Shown here: positions 12,440 to 50,429 of the stretch, piece by piece
How the letters are laid out: every line of letters starts with the position of its first letter
Numbering within the stretch: the stretch's first letter is position 1
Assembly (NCBI GenBank): GCA_009840625.1
Contig: VXNJ01000010.1
Coordinates: 124,001 to 188,000 of the forward strand
Reading direction: 5' to 3'
DNA length: 64,000 nucleotides
Source of the DNA: Chloroflexota bacterium
GTDB taxonomy: Bacteria; Chloroflexota; UBA11872; VXNJ01
The notes under the pieces: generated by a model
The model's database searches: none
The model's input: the letters and a program-made list of their open reading frames with translations, nothing else
Told to the model about the DNA's origin: nothing
Made by a program: the position numbers and the translations under genes

Positions 12440-12703
12440 CTATTCGGACTTGAAGTAGTCGGCATTGACCTGCAGCCACTCGGCTTTGTCGTCGGGCAGA
12501 TCAAAGTCGGGGTAGATTGCCTCCACCGGGCACGCGGGCTCGCAGGCTCCGCAGTCGATGCACTCGATCGGATCAATGTAGAGCATTTCCGCCGATTCGA
12601 ATTCATCCTCGTCGGTCCGCGGATGAATGCAGTCGACCGGGCAAACATCGACGCAGGAGGCGTCTTTGGTGCCGATGCAGGCGTCGGTGATGATGTAGGT
12701 GAT
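12440..12703 (-). CDS. 7Fe/8Fe-type ferredoxin, start codon probably ATC
   Basis: 87 residues. The first cysteine set is C-x7-C-x3-C-x3-C (CIGTKDASCVDVCPVDC) and the second is CIDCGACEPACP, as in the [3Fe-4S][4Fe-4S] ferredoxins of Thermus and Mycobacterium. It carries electrons in the cytoplasm. The conserved N-terminus (xTYIITDACIG) begins at an ATC codon (12701-12703). In frame upstream there is no ATG, GTG or TTG before a TAA, while a strong Shine-Dalgarno, GAGGAG (12712-12717), sits 8 nt from this ATC. Either ATC initiates or the assembly has an error at one base. The only in-frame ATG lies in the middle of the protein. Confidence 0.88.
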   Translation of the reverse strand: MTYIITDACIGTKDASCVDVCPVDCIHPRTDEDEFESAEMLYIDPIECIDCGACEPACPVEAIYPDFDLPDDKAEWLQVNADYFKSE

Positions 12704-12777
12704 TCGGGGTGCTCCTCGCCGGCTTTTAAGCCGCCCTTGTGCGCCGCCCGGATTTTACAAGCGAAACAGGATTGCCG

Positions 12778-33602: not shown

Positions 33603-33743
33603 TTGGCCAGAGGCAGTCCGCGGCGCGCGCCGAAGCATGATCTTCCTCGGCTCGATCACGTACGGACCGACATCCTACGCATTGCGATCACCGCCCTGGT
33701 CGTGTTCGCGCTTCTGCTTCCGGCGTACTTCCTAGTCGGGTAA
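33603..33743 (+). CDS. Tiny single-pass membrane protein (46 aa)
   Basis: Starts at TTG 33603, with AAAGGGAG about 10 nt upstream. A basic, Pro-rich head (RGSPRRAPKHDLPRLDHV) is followed by one hydrophobic helix (about 27-45, LRIAITALVVFALLLPAY). Small proteins of this shape are common upstream of other genes in Chloroflexota genomes, but I know no function. Its stop (33741-33743) lies 53 nt before the folC start proposed here, suggesting one transcript. Confidence 0.6.
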   Translation: MARGSPRRAPKHDLPRLDHVRTDILRIAITALVVFALLLPAYFLVG

Positions 33744-33796
33744 CCCAGCTGCCCGCAGCCGACCAGCTGGCGCTGGTAACCGCCACTGAGGCGCGG

Positions 33797-35146
33797 CTGC
33801 TCAGACTGATCCGCTCCGGGTACGGAGACGCATCAACGCCTCGTTACTCGCGCTCCGCGGCAATAGAGCGTGGCGAGGCAAGGCTCGGGCGGATGCGCGC
33901 GCTGTTGAGAGCTGCCGGCAACCCGCAGCTGCAATACCCGGTGATCCAGGTGGCGGGCACCTCCGGAAAGGGTTCGACGGCGCAGCTGATCGGATCGCTG
34001 CTGAAGGCTTGCGGTCTCAAGGTGGGTCTTCACCAGACGCCGTACCTACAGTCCCCCACCGAAAAACTGGTGCTCGGCGAAAAACTGGCCTCGGCGGAGG
34101 AATTTGCCGCCTCGACCGACTGGCTGTTTACCGCCGCCGAGAAGATGTGCCAGCGCGACCCGGGATTCGAATTACGTTACGGGTCGGCCTGGGTCACCCT
34201 GACCTTCGGGCACTTCGCACGGGCAGAACCCGACTTTCTCGTGCTCGAGTGTGGCGCCGGCGCCCGCTATGACCTGACCAACGTCACCGAACCGGAAGTC
34301 AGCGTGATCACCAGGGTCGGACTGGATCACCAGGCAACGCTTGGCGGAAGCGTTGCCGAAATCGCCTGGCACAAGGCCGGTATTGCCCGGGCCGGCAGAC
34401 CGCTGGTGACCATTGCCCAGGGAGAACAAATCGATGCCGCGATCGATGATGAGTGCGCCCGGGTCGGCGCCCGGTTGAAGCGGTTGCGTGAAGGTACTGA
34501 CTGGGTGGTCAACCGCGGCGGCGGCCGAACCAGCTTCACATACCGCGGCAAGACGCTGAGATTGGGACCGGTCGAGCTGGGGGACGGCGCTTGGCAGGCC
34601 GAGAATGCGGCGCTGGCCTGCGGAGCGGTGGAGGAAATACTGGCCGGGGTGTCGGTTCCTGACATTGACGCGATGGCCCGCTCGCTGGCCCGGACGCGCC
34701 TGCAGGGCCGCCTGGAGCTGGCGTCGAAAAGGCCGCTGGTGATCCTCGACGGGGCGCATAACCCTCAGAAATCGGCAGCACTGGCCAGGACCCTGCCGGG
34801 AATCGTTGGGCGGCGCAAGCTGGTGGCGGTGCTAGGGGTGATGGGTTACAAGAAAGCCAAGGAAGTTCTTGAGCCGATCGCCGCCGCCGCCGATGAGGTC
34901 GTTTTCACCCAGGCCGACGTTTACGTCAAACGCGCTTATCCGGCGCGGGATCTCATGGAATTGGTCGGGGTGGAAAACGCGCGGGCGATCGCCGATCCAA
35001 ATGAAGCGCTACGGTCGGCAATCGGGATGGCCGGACCGCACGGCGCGGTTTGTGTTACCGGTTCGTTATATCTCGTCGGCCGGGTGCGCGAGCGCTGGTG
35101 GCCGACCGACCGGATCGTCAGCCAGCGAACGCCGTGGCCCGACTAA
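33797..35146 (+). CDS. folC: Folylpolyglutamate synthase/dihydrofolate synthase, start probably CTG
   Basis: 449 residues from CTG 33797. It adds glutamate to folates (and perhaps to dihydropteroate). Signatures: VAGTSGKGSTAQLIGSLL (P-loop), GLHQTPYLQSPTEKL, LVLECGAGARYDLTNV, RVGLDHQATLGGSVAEIAWHK-type Mur ligase pattern and ILDGAHNPQKSAAL. The first standard start (ATG 33893) begins inside the conserved helix ARLGRMRALLRAAGNPQ, so translation must begin earlier. Upstream in frame I find no ATG, GTG or TTG, but CTG 33797 has GAGG (33788-33791) 5 nt before it and gives a normal N-terminal length. Confidence 0.9.
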   Translation: MLRLIRSGYGDASTPRYSRSAAIERGEARLGRMRALLRAAGNPQLQYPVIQVAGTSGKGSTAQLIGSLLKACGLKVGLHQTPYLQSPTEKLVLGEKLASAEEFAASTDWLFTAAEKMCQRDPGFELRYGSAWVTLTFGHFARAEPDFLVLECGAGARYDLTNVTEPEVSVITRVGLDHQATLGGSVAEIAWHKAGIARAGRPLVTIAQGEQIDAAIDDECARVGARLKRLREGTDWVVNRGGGRTSFTYRGKTLRLGPVELGDGAWQAENAALACGAVEEILAGVSVPDIDAMARSLARTRLQGRLELASKRPLVILDGAHNPQKSAALARTLPGIVGRRKLVAVLGVMGYKKAKEVLEPIAAAADEVVFTQADVYVKRAYPARDLMELVGVENARAIADPNEALRSAIGMAGPHGAVCVTGSLYLVGRVRERWWPTDRIVSQRTPWPD

Positions 35147-36972
35147 ACCAGGGCGGGAATTACGGCAACCGCCAGTAGGTCTTCATCGAGCAGGCCATTG
35201 GCGGAATTCCAGACCTCCCACGAATCGGAGGCCGGATCGTATCGGGCCGCCCCGGCGTCGGTGGCGATGAGGATTGCACCGGTCGAATCCTCGGCCAGGC
35301 CGCGGATGTCGTCACCGGGAAGTTGACTCGAGTCAGCGTCAAAAAAGCTGAAGTCGAACTCACCGGGAGAGATCACGGCCAGCCCGGAATCGGTTCCCAC
35401 CCAAACCGAACCGTCGCTGGCGGCCAGGATTTGCCGGATGGCAAGACTCGGCAGACCGTCGGCCAGGCCGTAGCCGGTAAACGGGCCGGCCAGACCGGTC
35501 AGCGAGGCGGCCAGACCGGCGGCGGCGGTACCCACCCAGAGCTCGGACCCGGCTACTGCGACCGAGGTGATATCACTGCTGGGAAGCCCGGCGCGGCTGT
35601 CAATCGTGGCCCAAACGCGGCCGTCGAAATGGGCCAGTCCGGCGTCGGTGGCCACCCACATTTGGGGTGGCCGGTCGCTGGCCAGGACGGCGGACCGCAC
35701 GTTCCGGCTGGGCAGGCCGGCGGGGCCGACGGGGACGTCCGATAAGGAGCCGCGGGTGGATCCGAACACGGGCTGAATGTACTGGGCCAGACCGGCATCC
35801 TGGAGTGCCAGCAGGACGATCTGCCCCGAATCCGTGCTTACGTCGAGCACGGTGTTGGCGGCCAGGCCGGAGCCGGCCGCATCGATCAAGACGTTGCCGC
35901 CCGGGTCAAAGTAGGGGAAATAGTAGGCCCCGCCGTCGGTGCCCAACCAGAGGCCGCGCCGGCGGTCGGTGGTAACCGATCGGACGGTGTCGGACAGCAG
36001 TTCGGAATTTGCAACCTCGACGGATCGCCACCCCTCGCCGTCGAACACCAGCAGACCGGCGGTGCGCGAACCGAACGCGTAGAGTTCCCCGGGCGGCAGG
36101 GTATTGGCCGGGGAGGGTGTCGACGACGGGGGAACGACCTCCAGCAGTTCATAGGGGTCGCCTTTGGCGAGCGGCGGGGCCCCGCGGAACGGCACCAGCG
36201 AATACCAGTACTGGTCGGGGTAGGAAATGTTGCGCAGCACGTCGCCGAGCAGCGAGAGCTTCACCGGAGCCCGAGGGTCGGACGGGTGGTGTTCGAACAC
36301 CGCGGCCTGGAAGTACTGACGAACGAAACCGGTCGTGGATCCCGGGGCAAGCAACGTGCCCGGCGAACCGGTATCGATGCGGGCGTCCGTCTTGGGGAGC
36401 CCGAAGCTGGCCACGCCGCCGAGCTCGTCGAAGAACCGGCGGAATCCGATCTCGTTGCCGTTCAAGTCGAAATCGGAAACCCGGTGGCCCCATGGGCCAA
36501 GCTCTCTTCCGGGATGCGGGTTCCGGATGTCGGGCTCGGTCCCCTGATCGACTGAATTGGCGCGGCCCCCGCCGACGTAGTCCCAGGCAAGCCGGCGTTC
36601 CAGGACCCAGGCGTTGCCCAGATCGGGGCGTCGGTGATAGTCGACCACCCCGCGCTGGTAGTACTGGGTGAGCGATCCAGCCTCCTCGACCAGGACCTCG
36701 GAGGTGGCCAGCCCCCAGCGCGCCTCGGCGCCGGTGGCCAGAAAGTGGTCGCGAAAAGTTGCCCGGTGCTCGACACCGTCGATCGTGAGCAGGAGATTGG
36801 GGATGTTGTGGCTCAGGATCGGGTTGTTGCCGATTTCATCGCGCAGGTAGATTGTTTCCTCGACCTGCGGCGTGGCGGCCCCGGCAACAGGGGCGCCGGC
36901 AACTGCGGTCGCCAGCAGGAGAAGGGCCGCCACCAGGCGGACGACCGGGGTCAGTTCTCGGCGGCGGTCCAA
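35143..36972 (-). CDS. Secreted beta-propeller protein (Reg_prop-type repeats)
   Basis: 609 residues from TTG 36972 (CTG 36954, overlapping the upstream TGA, is an alternative). A Sec signal peptide (LVAALLLLATAVAGAPVAGA) is followed by a beta-rich domain (about 35-235: FFDELGGVASFGLPKTDARI, VRQYFQAAVFEHHP), then six or seven repeats of the pattern LWLGTDGGAYYF, MWVATDAGLAHFDGRVWATI, LWVGTAAAGL, VWVGTDSGLAVI, ILIATDAGAARYDP, as in two-component-regulator propellers. There is no kinase or membrane part. It may be a secreted ligand-binding scaffold. Its 3' end overlaps folC by 4 nt on the other strand. Confidence 0.82.
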   Translation of the reverse strand: MDRRRELTPVVRLVAALLLLATAVAGAPVAGAATPQVEETIYLRDEIGNNPILSHNIPNLLLTIDGVEHRATFRDHFLATGAEARWGLATSEVLVEEAGSLTQYYQRGVVDYHRRPDLGNAWVLERRLAWDYVGGGRANSVDQGTEPDIRNPHPGRELGPWGHRVSDFDLNGNEIGFRRFFDELGGVASFGLPKTDARIDTGSPGTLLAPGSTTGFVRQYFQAAVFEHHPSDPRAPVKLSLLGDVLRNISYPDQYWYSLVPFRGAPPLAKGDPYELLEVVPPSSTPSPANTLPPGELYAFGSRTAGLLVFDGEGWRSVEVANSELLSDTVRSVTTDRRRGLWLGTDGGAYYFPYFDPGGNVLIDAAGSGLAANTVLDVSTDSGQIVLLALQDAGLAQYIQPVFGSTRGSLSDVPVGPAGLPSRNVRSAVLASDRPPQMWVATDAGLAHFDGRVWATIDSRAGLPSSDITSVAVAGSELWVGTAAAGLAASLTGLAGPFTGYGLADGLPSLAIRQILAASDGSVWVGTDSGLAVISPGEFDFSFFDADSSQLPGDDIRGLAEDSTGAILIATDAGAARYDPASDSWEVWNSANGLLDEDLLAVAVIPALV

Positions 36973-37163
36973 AACGACTTGAGGCTTTCCTCGATGTCGG
37001 TGCGCCGGTCGCAGGCCGCCCGCAGCTGGGCGATGTCGAAACTGGATCCGGTCCAGCCGGCCCCGCCCAGCAATCGATCGACATCCTGCGATGCCGAGCG
37101 CCACTGCCGCAGGAGGCTGAGGAGCTGGTTTTTCTGGGCGCGCGATAGCTGCCTGGAAGACAC
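36951..37163 (-). CDS. Small helical protein of unknown function (70 aa)
   Basis: Reads SSRQLSRAQKNQLLSLLRQW near the N-terminus, then QDVDRLLGGAGW and a helix rich in Arg, Asp and Glu up to KSFWTAAEN. It is a soluble, apparently all-helical protein without cysteine or signal peptide. I recognise no family. It overlaps the start of the propeller gene downstream, so translation of the two is probably coupled. No other evidence supports it than an open frame and position. Confidence 0.5.
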   Translation of the reverse strand: MSSRQLSRAQKNQLLSLLRQWRSASQDVDRLLGGAGWTGSSFDIAQLRAACDRRTDIEESLKSFWTAAEN

Positions 37164-47024: not shown

Positions 47025-48071
47025 ATGCCAACTCTGATCACCGGGGCCACCGGAACCATCGGGCGCCGGCTGGCGGGCCGACTGGCCGAGCGCGGCGACG
47101 AGCTGGTCGCCCTGGTGCGGCCGGGCAGCGACGAGGACGCGCTCGGCGACCTGGAATTGGACCTGGTGGAGGGCGACATTACCGATCCGGAGGACGTGCG
47201 CGAGGCATTGGCGGGATGCAGCCGCGTTTTCCACCTAGCGGGGGCGTTCAGCGAATGGCTGGCCGACGAGCGCGAGTATTTCGACGTGAACACCGGCGGC
47301 ACGGTCAATGTGCTCAACGCCGCCTCGGCGGCTGGGATCGAAAAGATGGTTCACGTTTCCTCGGCTTCGGCGATCGGGCAGCCGCAATTTGAGATCGGCG
47401 ACGAGGACACAGTGCACCGCGGGAGTTTTCTGACCACCTACGAGCGCTCCAAGTGGGAGGCCGAACAGTTCGTGCTGGAAGAGGCCGAGGGAGGCCTGCC
47501 GGTCACGATCGTCTGCCCGGCGATGGTTTATGGGCCGGGCGACCTGCGCCACAACGGGCGACGCTTGGTTTCGTTGCTCAGCGGGCGCCCGGTGGCGACG
47601 CTGGCGACCGATTCGGCTTACGTGTTCATCGACGATGTGGTCGAGGGAATAATCGCCGCCGACGAGCGCGGACGCCCCGGCGAGCGCTACATCCTCAGCG
47701 GTGGCAACATGACGCGCGAGGAATTCCTGATCGCCGCGCTGGACGTGGCGGGCGTGAAGGGCAACCTGCAGCGGGTCTCGGCGTGGCAGCTGCGCCTGCT
47801 CCAGCACATGGACTCGATTCGCCGCATCTTCCGGCCGCGAGAGGCCCCGGTGGTGACCAAGCAGGGCATCGACTTTGCCCTGTTCGGACACAGCTTCGAC
47901 GCCACCAAGGCGCGCCAGGAGCTGGGCCTGGAATTCACCGACGTCGAAGACGGCCTCGACGAGACGATCGAATGGCTATACCAGGAAGGCTTGATCGACC
48001 TGCCCGACGATGTCCTGCCTGACGATGAAAGCGACCCGGACGACAGCCCAAACGGGGAATCGATTGTCTGA
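47025..48071 (+). CDS. NAD-dependent epimerase/dehydratase (dihydroflavonol-reductase-like)
   Basis: 348 residues, 5 nt after the aldolase gene. The Rossmann motif is ITGATGTIGRRLAGRL; VFHLAGAFSEW, VHVSSASAIG and the active site YERSKWEAE (Tyr-x-x-x-Lys) follow. The arrangement resembles dihydroflavonol-4-reductase-type extended SDRs. The C-terminus ends in an acidic tail (DDVLPDDESDPDDSPNG). The substrate is unknown. Its stop overlaps the hom start by 8 nt. Confidence 0.9.
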   Translation: MPTLITGATGTIGRRLAGRLAERGDELVALVRPGSDEDALGDLELDLVEGDITDPEDVREALAGCSRVFHLAGAFSEWLADEREYFDVNTGGTVNVLNAASAAGIEKMVHVSSASAIGQPQFEIGDEDTVHRGSFLTTYERSKWEAEQFVLEEAEGGLPVTIVCPAMVYGPGDLRHNGRRLVSLLSGRPVATLATDSAYVFIDDVVEGIIAADERGRPGERYILSGGNMTREEFLIAALDVAGVKGNLQRVSAWQLRLLQHMDSIRRIFRPREAPVVTKQGIDFALFGHSFDATKARQELGLEFTDVEDGLDETIEWLYQEGLIDLPDDVLPDDESDPDDSPNGESIV

Positions 48072-49368
48072 TTCGGGCCCCATACGGGTCGGCATGCTCG
48101 GTCTGGGCAACGTCGGCGCGGGCGTGGCGGCGGTGCTGTTCAACAAGAGCGAGCAGCTGGCCGCCTCCGTCGGCCGCGGGCTAAAGCTGCAGCGGGCCCT
48201 GGTGCGCGACCCGAATCGGCCGCGCCCGATTGCCCCGCCGTCGGGCGTTCTGACCACCGACCCGCAGCGGATCGTGGCGGCCGACGACATCGACGTGGTG
48301 ATCGAACTCCTCGGCGGGCTGGACCCGGCGCGCGAGCTCATCGAAGCCTCGATTTCCAACGGCAAGCACGTTGTAACTGCCAACAAGGAAGTCATGGCCC
48401 ACCACGGCGCCGAGCTCCTCGCCCATGCCGCCGAACGCGGCGTCGACCTTTACTTCGAGGCCAGCGTCGGGGCGGGAATTCCGCTGATCGGCCCGTTTCG
48501 CCAGAACCTGACCGCCAACCAGTTTTCGGCGGTCGAGGCAATCATCAACGGCACCACCAACTACATCCTCACGCGGATGGCGGCGGAAGGGTCCGACTTC
48601 GGCGCGGTACTGGCGGACGCGCAGCGACTCGGTTACGCCGAGCCCGATCCGGCCAACGATATCGAGGGACACGACGCCGCCTACAAACTGGCGGTGCTCG
48701 CGACCCTGGCGTTCGGGATCGAAGTCCGGCCGGAGAGCATCTTTCGCGAGGGGATAGCCGGTCTGGCTGCCGCCGACTTCAGGGCCGCGGCCGATCTCGG
48801 CTACGGGATCAAGCTGCTGGCCATCGCCCGTCTCAACGACGGTGCGGTCGAGGCCCGCGTTCATCCGACGATGATCCCGCGCGAGTGCCTCCTGTGCCAG
48901 GTCGGCGGCGTTGAGAACGCGGTTCGGATCCAGGGCGACCTGATTGGCAACGCGACTTTCGTCGGCCGCGGTGCCGGGCCCGAACCGACCGCCAGCGCAA
49001 TCGTGGCCGACCTGATCGACCTGGCCCACAACCTGGCCCTTGGGGCCCATGCGCGGGTGCCGCTGCGGGTGGGCGCAAGCTGCTCGTTCAGGCCGATCGA
49101 GCGGGTGCGCTCGCGCTACTATCTGCGCCTCTGGGTCAAGGACCAGCCGGGCGTACTGGCCCAGATCGGGAGCGTGTTCGGCGCCCACGAAGTATCGATC
49201 GCCGCCGTCACCCAGAAAGAGACCGACGACGACGCCTCGTTGGCCGAGCTCGTGATCGTTACCCATCAAGCGGTCGAAAAGGACATGCAGGCAGCGGTGG
49301 CTGAGGCCGGCGGACTGGAAATCACCGACCGGATCGCGACCCTGATTCGGATCGAGGACATCTCCTGA
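48064..49368 (+). CDS. hom: Homoserine dehydrogenase
   Basis: 434 residues from TTG 48064, with GGGGAA upstream and inside the end of the previous gene. Reduces aspartate semialdehyde to homoserine. GMLGLGNVGAGVAAVL (NAD(P)), TANKEVMAHHGAELL, FEASVGAGIPLIGPF, IINGTTNYILTRM and DPANDIEGHDAAYKLAVLA are the family blocks, with the catalytic Lys and Asp included. An ACT domain follows after about 350 (LRLWVKDQPGVLAQIGSVFG), which usually gives feedback control by threonine. The thrC gene overlaps its stop. Confidence 0.96.
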   Translation: MSDSGPIRVGMLGLGNVGAGVAAVLFNKSEQLAASVGRGLKLQRALVRDPNRPRPIAPPSGVLTTDPQRIVAADDIDVVIELLGGLDPARELIEASISNGKHVVTANKEVMAHHGAELLAHAAERGVDLYFEASVGAGIPLIGPFRQNLTANQFSAVEAIINGTTNYILTRMAAEGSDFGAVLADAQRLGYAEPDPANDIEGHDAAYKLAVLATLAFGIEVRPESIFREGIAGLAAADFRAAADLGYGIKLLAIARLNDGAVEARVHPTMIPRECLLCQVGGVENAVRIQGDLIGNATFVGRGAGPEPTASAIVADLIDLAHNLALGAHARVPLRVGASCSFRPIERVRSRYYLRLWVKDQPGVLAQIGSVFGAHEVSIAAVTQKETDDDASLAELVIVTHQAVEKDMQAAVAEAGGLEITDRIATLIRIEDIS

Positions 49369-50429
49369 AGCCGGAGCCGCTGCGCCCCGGAGTCGTCGAG
49401 CGCTGGCAGCGCTTCTGGCCGGTCGGCGACTCCACCCCCAGGGTTTCGCTGGGCGAGGGCGATACGCCGCTGGTGCGCCTACCGGCCCTGGAACGGGACA
49501 CCGGAGCCGGCCAGGTTTGGGCCAAGTACGACGGCTGCAACCCGACCGGATCGTTCAAGGACCGCGGCATGGCGCTGGCGATCAGCAAGGCCCTGGAAGG
49601 CGGCGCCCACACGGTCATCTGCGCCTCGACCGGCAACACCTCGGCAGCGGCAGCGGCCTACGCCGGCCGGGCCGGGCTGCGCTGCGTGGTGCTGGTCTCG
49701 GATGCAATCGCCCGCGGAAAACTGGCCCAGGCGCAGGTCTACGGCTCGGACGTGGTAGTAATGGACGCGAATTTCGATGTCCGCCTGGAGGTCGCCAAGG
49801 AGATCTGCGCGCGGGTGCCGGGAGTGGTGCACGTGAATTCCGTCAACCCGTACCGGCTGCAGGGCCAGCAATCGGCGGCGTTTGAAATCTGCAGCGAGCT
49901 GGGGTCGGCGCCGGACGAGCTCTACATTCCGGTCGGCAACGCCGGCAACATCCACGCCTACTGGCGCGGCTTTGCAAAGTTCGCCGATGCCGGCCTGATC
50001 GATGAGCTGCCGGTCCTGCGCGGTTTCCAGGCCGCCGGCGCCGCACCGATAGTCAGCGGGCGGCCGGTCGCCAATCCCTCCACCGTGGCCAGTGCCCTCG
50101 AAATTGGGAACCCCGAAAACTGGGAAAAGGCAATTCGGGCCCGCGACGAGGCCGGCGGATCGATCGAGGCCATTGAAGATGCCAAGATTCTCGAGGCTTA
50201 CGGCCAGCTGGCCCGCTGGGGATTGTTCTGCGAACCGGCCTCGGCAGTCTCGGTGGCCGGACTCAAGGACCGCGCCGAGCGCGGGCTGCTCCAAGCCGGG
50301 TCCCGGGTGGTTTGCGTGCTGACCGGATCCGGCCTGAAGGACCCGGAGGTTGCCCTGGGACGCTCCGATCCGCCGCTCCGGATCCAGAGCGCCGACCCCG
50401 AGGAGCTGCGGCAGGCGCTCTCCCTGTAA
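49365..50429 (+). CDS. thrC: Threonine synthase, CTG start overlapping hom stop
   Basis: 354 residues from CTG 49365. Converts O-phosphohomoserine to threonine with PLP. VSLGEGDTPLVRLPAL, then GCNPTGSFKDRGMALAI (Schiff-base Lys about 65), ASTGNTSAAAAAYAGRAGLR and PVGNAGNIHAYWRGF are typical. The nearest standard start (GTG 49473) would remove the conserved GEGDTPL block. CTG 49365 overlaps the hom stop as CTGA, and GAGGA (49354-49358) sits 6 nt before it, an ideal arrangement for coupled initiation. No other start exists in frame between the two. Confidence 0.95.
   Translation: MKPEPLRPGVVERWQRFWPVGDSTPRVSLGEGDTPLVRLPALERDTGAGQVWAKYDGCNPTGSFKDRGMALAISKALEGGAHTVICASTGNTSAAAAAYAGRAGLRCVVLVSDAIARGKLAQAQVYGSDVVVMDANFDVRLEVAKEICARVPGVVHVNSVNPYRLQGQQSAAFEICSELGSAPDELYIPVGNAGNIHAYWRGFAKFADAGLIDELPVLRGFQAAGAAPIVSGRPVANPSTVASALEIGNPENWEKAIRARDEAGGSIEAIEDAKILEAYGQLARWGLFCEPASAVSVAGLKDRAERGLLQAGSRVVCVLTGSGLKDPEVALGRSDPPLRIQSADPEELRQALSL

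Follow-up and report, generated by a model that had tools for sequence, protein, structure and literature searches.

Four-base overlaps of the ATGA, GTGA or TTGA type are known sites of termination-reinitiation, in which the stop codon of one gene and the start codon of the next share bases and the Shine-Dalgarno sequence lies in the upstream gene. In E. coli, a GAGG located 9 nt upstream of the start increases re-initiation at close junctions about threefold (PMC2268962). CUG makes up 0.024% of annotated bacterial starts and initiates weakly in E. coli, at 0.86% of AUG (PMC11497404), and switches from AUG to CUG amount to 3.2×10−5 per start (PMC5622118). In a reporter selection in mycobacteria, CTG was not recovered as a start and ATT initiated well (PMC4633059). 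Extended Shine-Dalgarno sequences go with AUU and AUA starts in S. aureus (PMC13009471).

Here we describe the junction of hom and thrC in the genome of an uncultured Chloroflexota bacterium (2.27 Mb in 20 contigs); Chloroflexi assemblies rank among the best matches to its thrC. The window, i.e. the whole stretch of 64,000 nucleotides that was analysed, is G000:C10:124001-188000. The junction resembles the overlaps described above in its four-base overlap of stop and start and in the position of its Shine-Dalgarno sequence within the upstream gene; the gene order hom-thrC is conserved, and relatives carry ATGA at that junction. It differs in the first base of the start codon, which here is C.

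Layout of the hom-thrC junction and the start of thrC

The following features of the window are relevant.

47025-48071, plus strand: NAD-dependent epimerase-like gene (from the list of open reading frames; family judged by eye from the translation), whose TGA falls within the opening codons of hom
48064-49368, plus strand: hom (homoserine dehydrogenase; identity from the translation), probable start TTG 48064, stop TGA 49366-49368
49354-49358, plus strand: GAGGA, Shine-Dalgarno sequence of thrC, inside hom and followed by 6 nt (CATCTC) and then CTG
49365-49367, plus strand: CTG, predicted start codon of thrC, sharing bases with the hom stop as CTGA
49365-50429, plus strand: thrC (threonine synthase), 354 aa, TIGR00260 and PALP, orthologs 52-60% identical
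49473-49475, plus strand: GTG, first canonical in-frame codon of thrC, too deep in the conserved protein for a start

The original prediction had placed the thrC start at CTG 49365, overlapping the hom TGA and preceded by GAGGA with 6-nt spacing, and direct reading of the sequence showed these coordinates to be exact. The open thrC frame spans 49305-50429 and is preceded by the in-frame stop TGA 49302-49304. Between this stop and GTG 49473, direct reading found no ATG, GTG or TTG in the thrC frame. ATT, ATC and ATA are also missing from the frame before GTG 49473, and the only near-cognates there are CTG 49365, 49380 and 49449 and ACG 49464. The overlap of the start with the upstream stop and the Shine-Dalgarno sequence within hom place hom/thrC among the four-base overlaps. 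GAGGA matches the anti-Shine-Dalgarno sequence in just 4 contiguous bases. The mRNA fold at the hom-thrC junction was no more stable than that of shuffled sequences and gave no structure signal.

The thrC product scored 269.5 bits (E=4×10−80) against TIGR00260, exceeding the curated cut-off of 167.1 bits. Profile position 1 corresponds to residue 31 of the translation of window:49305-50426, 10 residues past CTG 49365, and the first canonical codon to residue 57, 26 residues past profile position 1. A start at GTG 49473 would cost about 26 TIGR00260 positions, including GEGDTPL, which agrees with the earlier expectation that the next standard start would remove this region; the PALP domain would also lose its first ~10 positions. 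With a codon-usage gene caller blind to start codons, the coding onset was found at 49362, one codon off CTG 49365, and the alignment with thrC orthologs begins at query residue 4-10. Among the relatives' matches listed, 29 of 29 other thrC orthologs have a canonical start that lies either at the conserved region or upstream of it. In the DNA alignment, order-level relatives carry ATGA (GTGA in G006) in the column where CTGA stands here. In the two closest family relatives, G002 and G004, hom is slightly longer and ends in CTGAAG-TTG, where TTG is the likely thrC start.

Thus, thrC has no ATG, GTG or TTG that keeps the conserved N-terminus. Given this lack of a canonical start together with the Shine-Dalgarno sequence, the ATGA of the relatives and the conserved N-terminus, we accept CTG initiation and conclude that translation of thrC very probably starts at CTG 49365. 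The CTG appears to have taken the place of a regular start codon at an otherwise normal coupled junction. That an essential enzyme would rely on CTG is surprising, CUG being a poor start in E. coli and absent from the starts recovered in the mycobacterial reporter selection (PMC4633059). In an 864-kb sample, CTGA accounted for 16 of the 89 NTGA four-base overlaps; since most of these are only a few codons from a canonical start, CTGA overlaps per se were dropped as evidence for CTG starts.

We propose that CTG 49365 of thrC, the last gene of the hom-thrC pair, is decoded by the usual fMet initiator tRNA, so that methionine would be inserted. A ribosome finishing hom at the overlapping TGA would be held by pairing of GAGGA with the 16S anti-Shine-Dalgarno sequence and would restart on CTG, and the high local supply of ribosomes from hom may offset the weakness of the codon. 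Because order-level relatives carry ATGA at that place, the CTG would be no special signal but a start codon that drifted and was retained where the two genes are coupled. A comparison of IF3, which had been suggested as a check of relaxed initiation, revealed an ordinary IF3 without a hint of it: the alignment with bacterial IF3 structures covers almost all of the protein, and ATG is available as the start of its gene. The initiator tRNA has the standard anticodon stem GGG/CCC (arm GGGCTCATAACCC, in two copies), and the 16S 3′ end, GGATCACCTCCTTTCT, carries the standard anti-Shine-Dalgarno sequence. Signs of relaxed initiation were thus sought in IF3, the initiator tRNA and the 16S 3′ end of this genome, and no departure from the norm was found.

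Other readings of the thrC start

A start of thrC at GTG 49473, with the upstream part remaining untranslated, would use the first canonical start codon in the frame. It would, however, sacrifice the ~26 profile positions with GEGDTPL, and the coding bias from 49362 and the ortholog alignments from query residue 4-10 argue against it as well; we regard this start as extremely improbable. We give just as little credence to a single Hom-ThrC protein produced through −1 frameshifting at the stop codon of hom. While the thrC frame is −1 with respect to hom and −1 slips can be stimulated by a Shine-Dalgarno-like element, a slippery heptamer is absent at ATCTCCTGA, strong structure downstream was not found, and order-level relatives have a plain ATGA start at that place. 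Post-termination ribosomes can move by a few bases, and initiation might therefore occur at another codon near the junction, either at CTG 49380, which is also in frame, or at any codon beneath such a ribosome. But a properly spaced Shine-Dalgarno sequence is present only at CTG 49365, which alone occupies the ATG column of the relatives, and initiation at another codon is highly improbable.

An assembly or sequencing error, with ATG, GTG or TTG as the true codon at 49365, has a somewhat better standing but is still improbable. The assembly is of metagenome type, without reads or a second strain, and one substitution would suffice for a canonical start, so that a single-base error is possible for thrC alone. 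Moreover, at least one gene, nrdR (L317), looks frameshifted, which indicates that errors or pseudogenes do occur in the assembly. On the other hand, at least seven independent genes would need errors precisely at the start codon, with the frames around them intact. Every one of the substituted codons is a near-cognate, seven of the nine cases considered below have a Shine-Dalgarno sequence of at least 4 bases, and random substitution errors would not pick out start codons. CTG 49365 remains our preferred start for thrC.

Probable near-cognate starts in the genome and its relatives

The original prediction suggested that this genome tolerates non-standard initiation and called for a genome-wide scan. 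We sampled 1.264 Mb in stretches (56% of 2.27 Mb; 1006 genes) for genes whose coding region extends upstream of every canonical start, and checked the candidates against profiles and relatives. In the caller model, only canonical start probabilities were learned; an unsupervised EM in which all 61 start codons were free drifted towards arbitrary codons at gene boundaries and was not used. The orthologs of RuvC, NifS, the FAD oxidoreductase and the hydrolase were compared by alignment range only. Per 1006 genes sampled, there were seven strong cases (0.7%), and up to 11 with the weaker ones. Apart from thrC, these are the following.

Window 12440-12703, minus strand: FdxA-type ferredoxin gene, predicted ATC start at 12701-12703; strong case, the second independent one in the window
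Window 12712-12717, minus strand: GAGGAG, Shine-Dalgarno sequence of the ferredoxin gene, 8 nt before ATC
C1:346092 (L162:6092): ATA of murJ, strong case; AGAGG-6-ATA, overlapping the upstream TAG as ATAG
C10:271643: CTG of a family-4 uracil-DNA glycosylase (UDG), strong case
C1:125049, minus strand: ATT of an alpha/beta hydrolase, strong case; AGGAG-7-ATT
C1:254343, minus strand: CTG of an amidohydrolase, strong case
C1:775381: CTG of an FAD oxidoreductase, strong case; next canonical codon inside the first strand of the FAD fold
C1:755160: CTG of ruvC, weaker case; no Shine-Dalgarno sequence, 4 nt past the upstream stop
nifS: CTGA overlap, weaker case; no Shine-Dalgarno sequence
Esterase: ATC, weaker case
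L331:15364-16659: GTA of a sugar kinase, weaker case; GTAG overlap after AAGGA

The non-standard start of the ferredoxin gene had been predicted too, and this claim held: position 1 of the FdxA_Actino profile coincides with the ATC codon, and the start codon in the 28 relatives checked is ATG (27) or GTG (one, G003). The UDG codon is GTG in several relatives, and the next canonical codon would remove the ECTSC cysteines. In the amidohydrolase, four family members have ATG or TTG at the same codon, and the DAHTH motif would be lost with a start at the next canonical codon. CTG starts were counted for thrC, UDG, the amidohydrolase and the FAD oxidoreductase. We infer that at least seven of the sampled genes start at CTG, ATC, ATT or ATA with a Shine-Dalgarno sequence, in each case where the conserved N-terminus begins.

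Two other predicted cases were unproven. In folC (window 33683-35146), the coding signal reaches ~50 codons further upstream than the first canonical start, a codon just 3 residues into the FolC profile; a near-cognate with a clear Shine-Dalgarno sequence was not found. For the CTGA overlap at 36952-36954 (window 36930-36980, minus strand; LTPVVRLVAALLLLATAVAGA), which lies ahead of a signal-peptide gene, an alternative start is possible at a GTG seven codons further on. CpaF, RNase Y and a sugar transferase of this genome were also flagged, yet a canonical start is usable in each. In nrdR (L317:12390-12848), the zinc-ribbon beginning is missing from the ATP-cone frame, and a frameshift or an assembly indel is likely.

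That non-standard starts occur mainly at coupled junctions was borne out, on small numbers. Six of nine cases (the seven strong ones, ruvC and nifS) have an upstream stop no more than 10 nt away, versus 25% of 871 confidently placed canonical starts with a same-strand upstream stop within 20 nt (binomial p=0.011). The distances to the upstream stop are −4 (thrC), −4 (murJ), +2 (UDG), +10 (hydrolase), +4 (ruvC) and −4 (nifS); the ferredoxin, amidohydrolase and FAD oxidoreductase genes are away from junctions. A preference of near-cognate starts for gene junctions is suggested by these small numbers from a set partly chosen by coding signal. Shine-Dalgarno sequences of at least 4 bases were found in 7/9 cases, compared with 13% in the background and 38% at ordinary starts, with a scoring that somewhat favoured Shine-Dalgarno sites. 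The simplest account is start-codon drift, which would be tolerable through the Shine-Dalgarno sequence and, often, an upstream terminating ribosome.

A matched search covered G002, G005 and G006 at 400 kb per genome (920 genes), with the gene caller for G006 seeded from this genome. After profile checks, about 3-4 putative cases per 920 genes remained from the following candidates.

G005: CTG of a permease
G005, L340:11515-12090: ispF, GTAG after GGAGG
G002: ATC of a peptidase
G006: CTGA of a methyltransferase

A trigger factor, a GNAT protein, a phosphoesterase and an APH kinase were flagged in the relatives, but a canonical start is usable; prfB of G006 (L136:6128-7243) has the usual in-frame stop of the known programmed frameshift of release factor 2. 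Among ~138 orthologs of five genes in the relatives, one was without a canonical start, namely murJ of G002 (sister genus; L226), in which ATC or ATA is the nearest choice of start.

With 7-9 cases per 1006 genes in this genome and 1-4 per 920 in the relatives, Fisher's test gave p=0.07 (7 vs 1) and p=0.27 (9 vs 4). The predicted tolerance of non-standard initiation is supported by several further near-cognate genes; the difference from the relatives is not significant in these samples. Since the relatives show such cases too, near-cognate starts are a rare and already known habit, not a new system.

Three overlaps with a TAG stop, those of murJ, the sugar kinase and ispF of G005, lack a good canonical start and have a good Shine-Dalgarno sequence before ATA or GTA. 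They form a possible class of NTAG starts. A wider reading would be that, in this Chloroflexota order, the terminating ribosome restarts on whatever triplet the stop dictates (CUG at CUGA, AUA or GUA at AUAG or GUAG), the start being defined by Shine-Dalgarno sequence and termination and not by the codon; we think it unlikely to be true.

Gene callers limited to ATG, GTG and TTG would mis-start or drop about 1% of the genes here, including those for threonine synthase, ferredoxin, MurJ and probably RuvC, and mis-started calls can lose metal-binding or Fe-S residues. If the predicted thrC start is true, termination-reinitiation and a Shine-Dalgarno sequence can together sustain an essential biosynthetic enzyme on a start codon whose efficiency in E. 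coli is <1% of that of AUG.

Comparison with described near-cognate starts

Several genes of one genome, that of Deinococcus deserti, reportedly have non-canonical starts, as described by Baudet and colleagues in 2010 (cited in PMC3305630). The starts in that genome were reportedly proven by N-terminal peptides; those proposed here are from a Chloroflexota genome and derive from its sequence.

The AUU or AUA starts of infC, pcnB, ccpN and cvfC1 are likewise near-cognates after a strong Shine-Dalgarno sequence (PMC13009471). Those codons, however, are regulatory and conserved, whereas the thrC codon varies even among members of the family, and for this reason drift is likelier here than regulation. 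The rare CUG starts annotated in bacteria (PMC11497404) have the same codon as thrC; here, we count at least four per ~1,000 genes. This rate is high relative to PMC11497404 and PMC5622118 in a comparison that is biased, as those annotations do not seek such starts. Taken together, start-codon drift supported by Shine-Dalgarno sequences would fit the Shine-Dalgarno-assisted near-cognate starts of PMC13009471, the re-initiation data of PMC2268962 and the reporter selection of PMC4633059.
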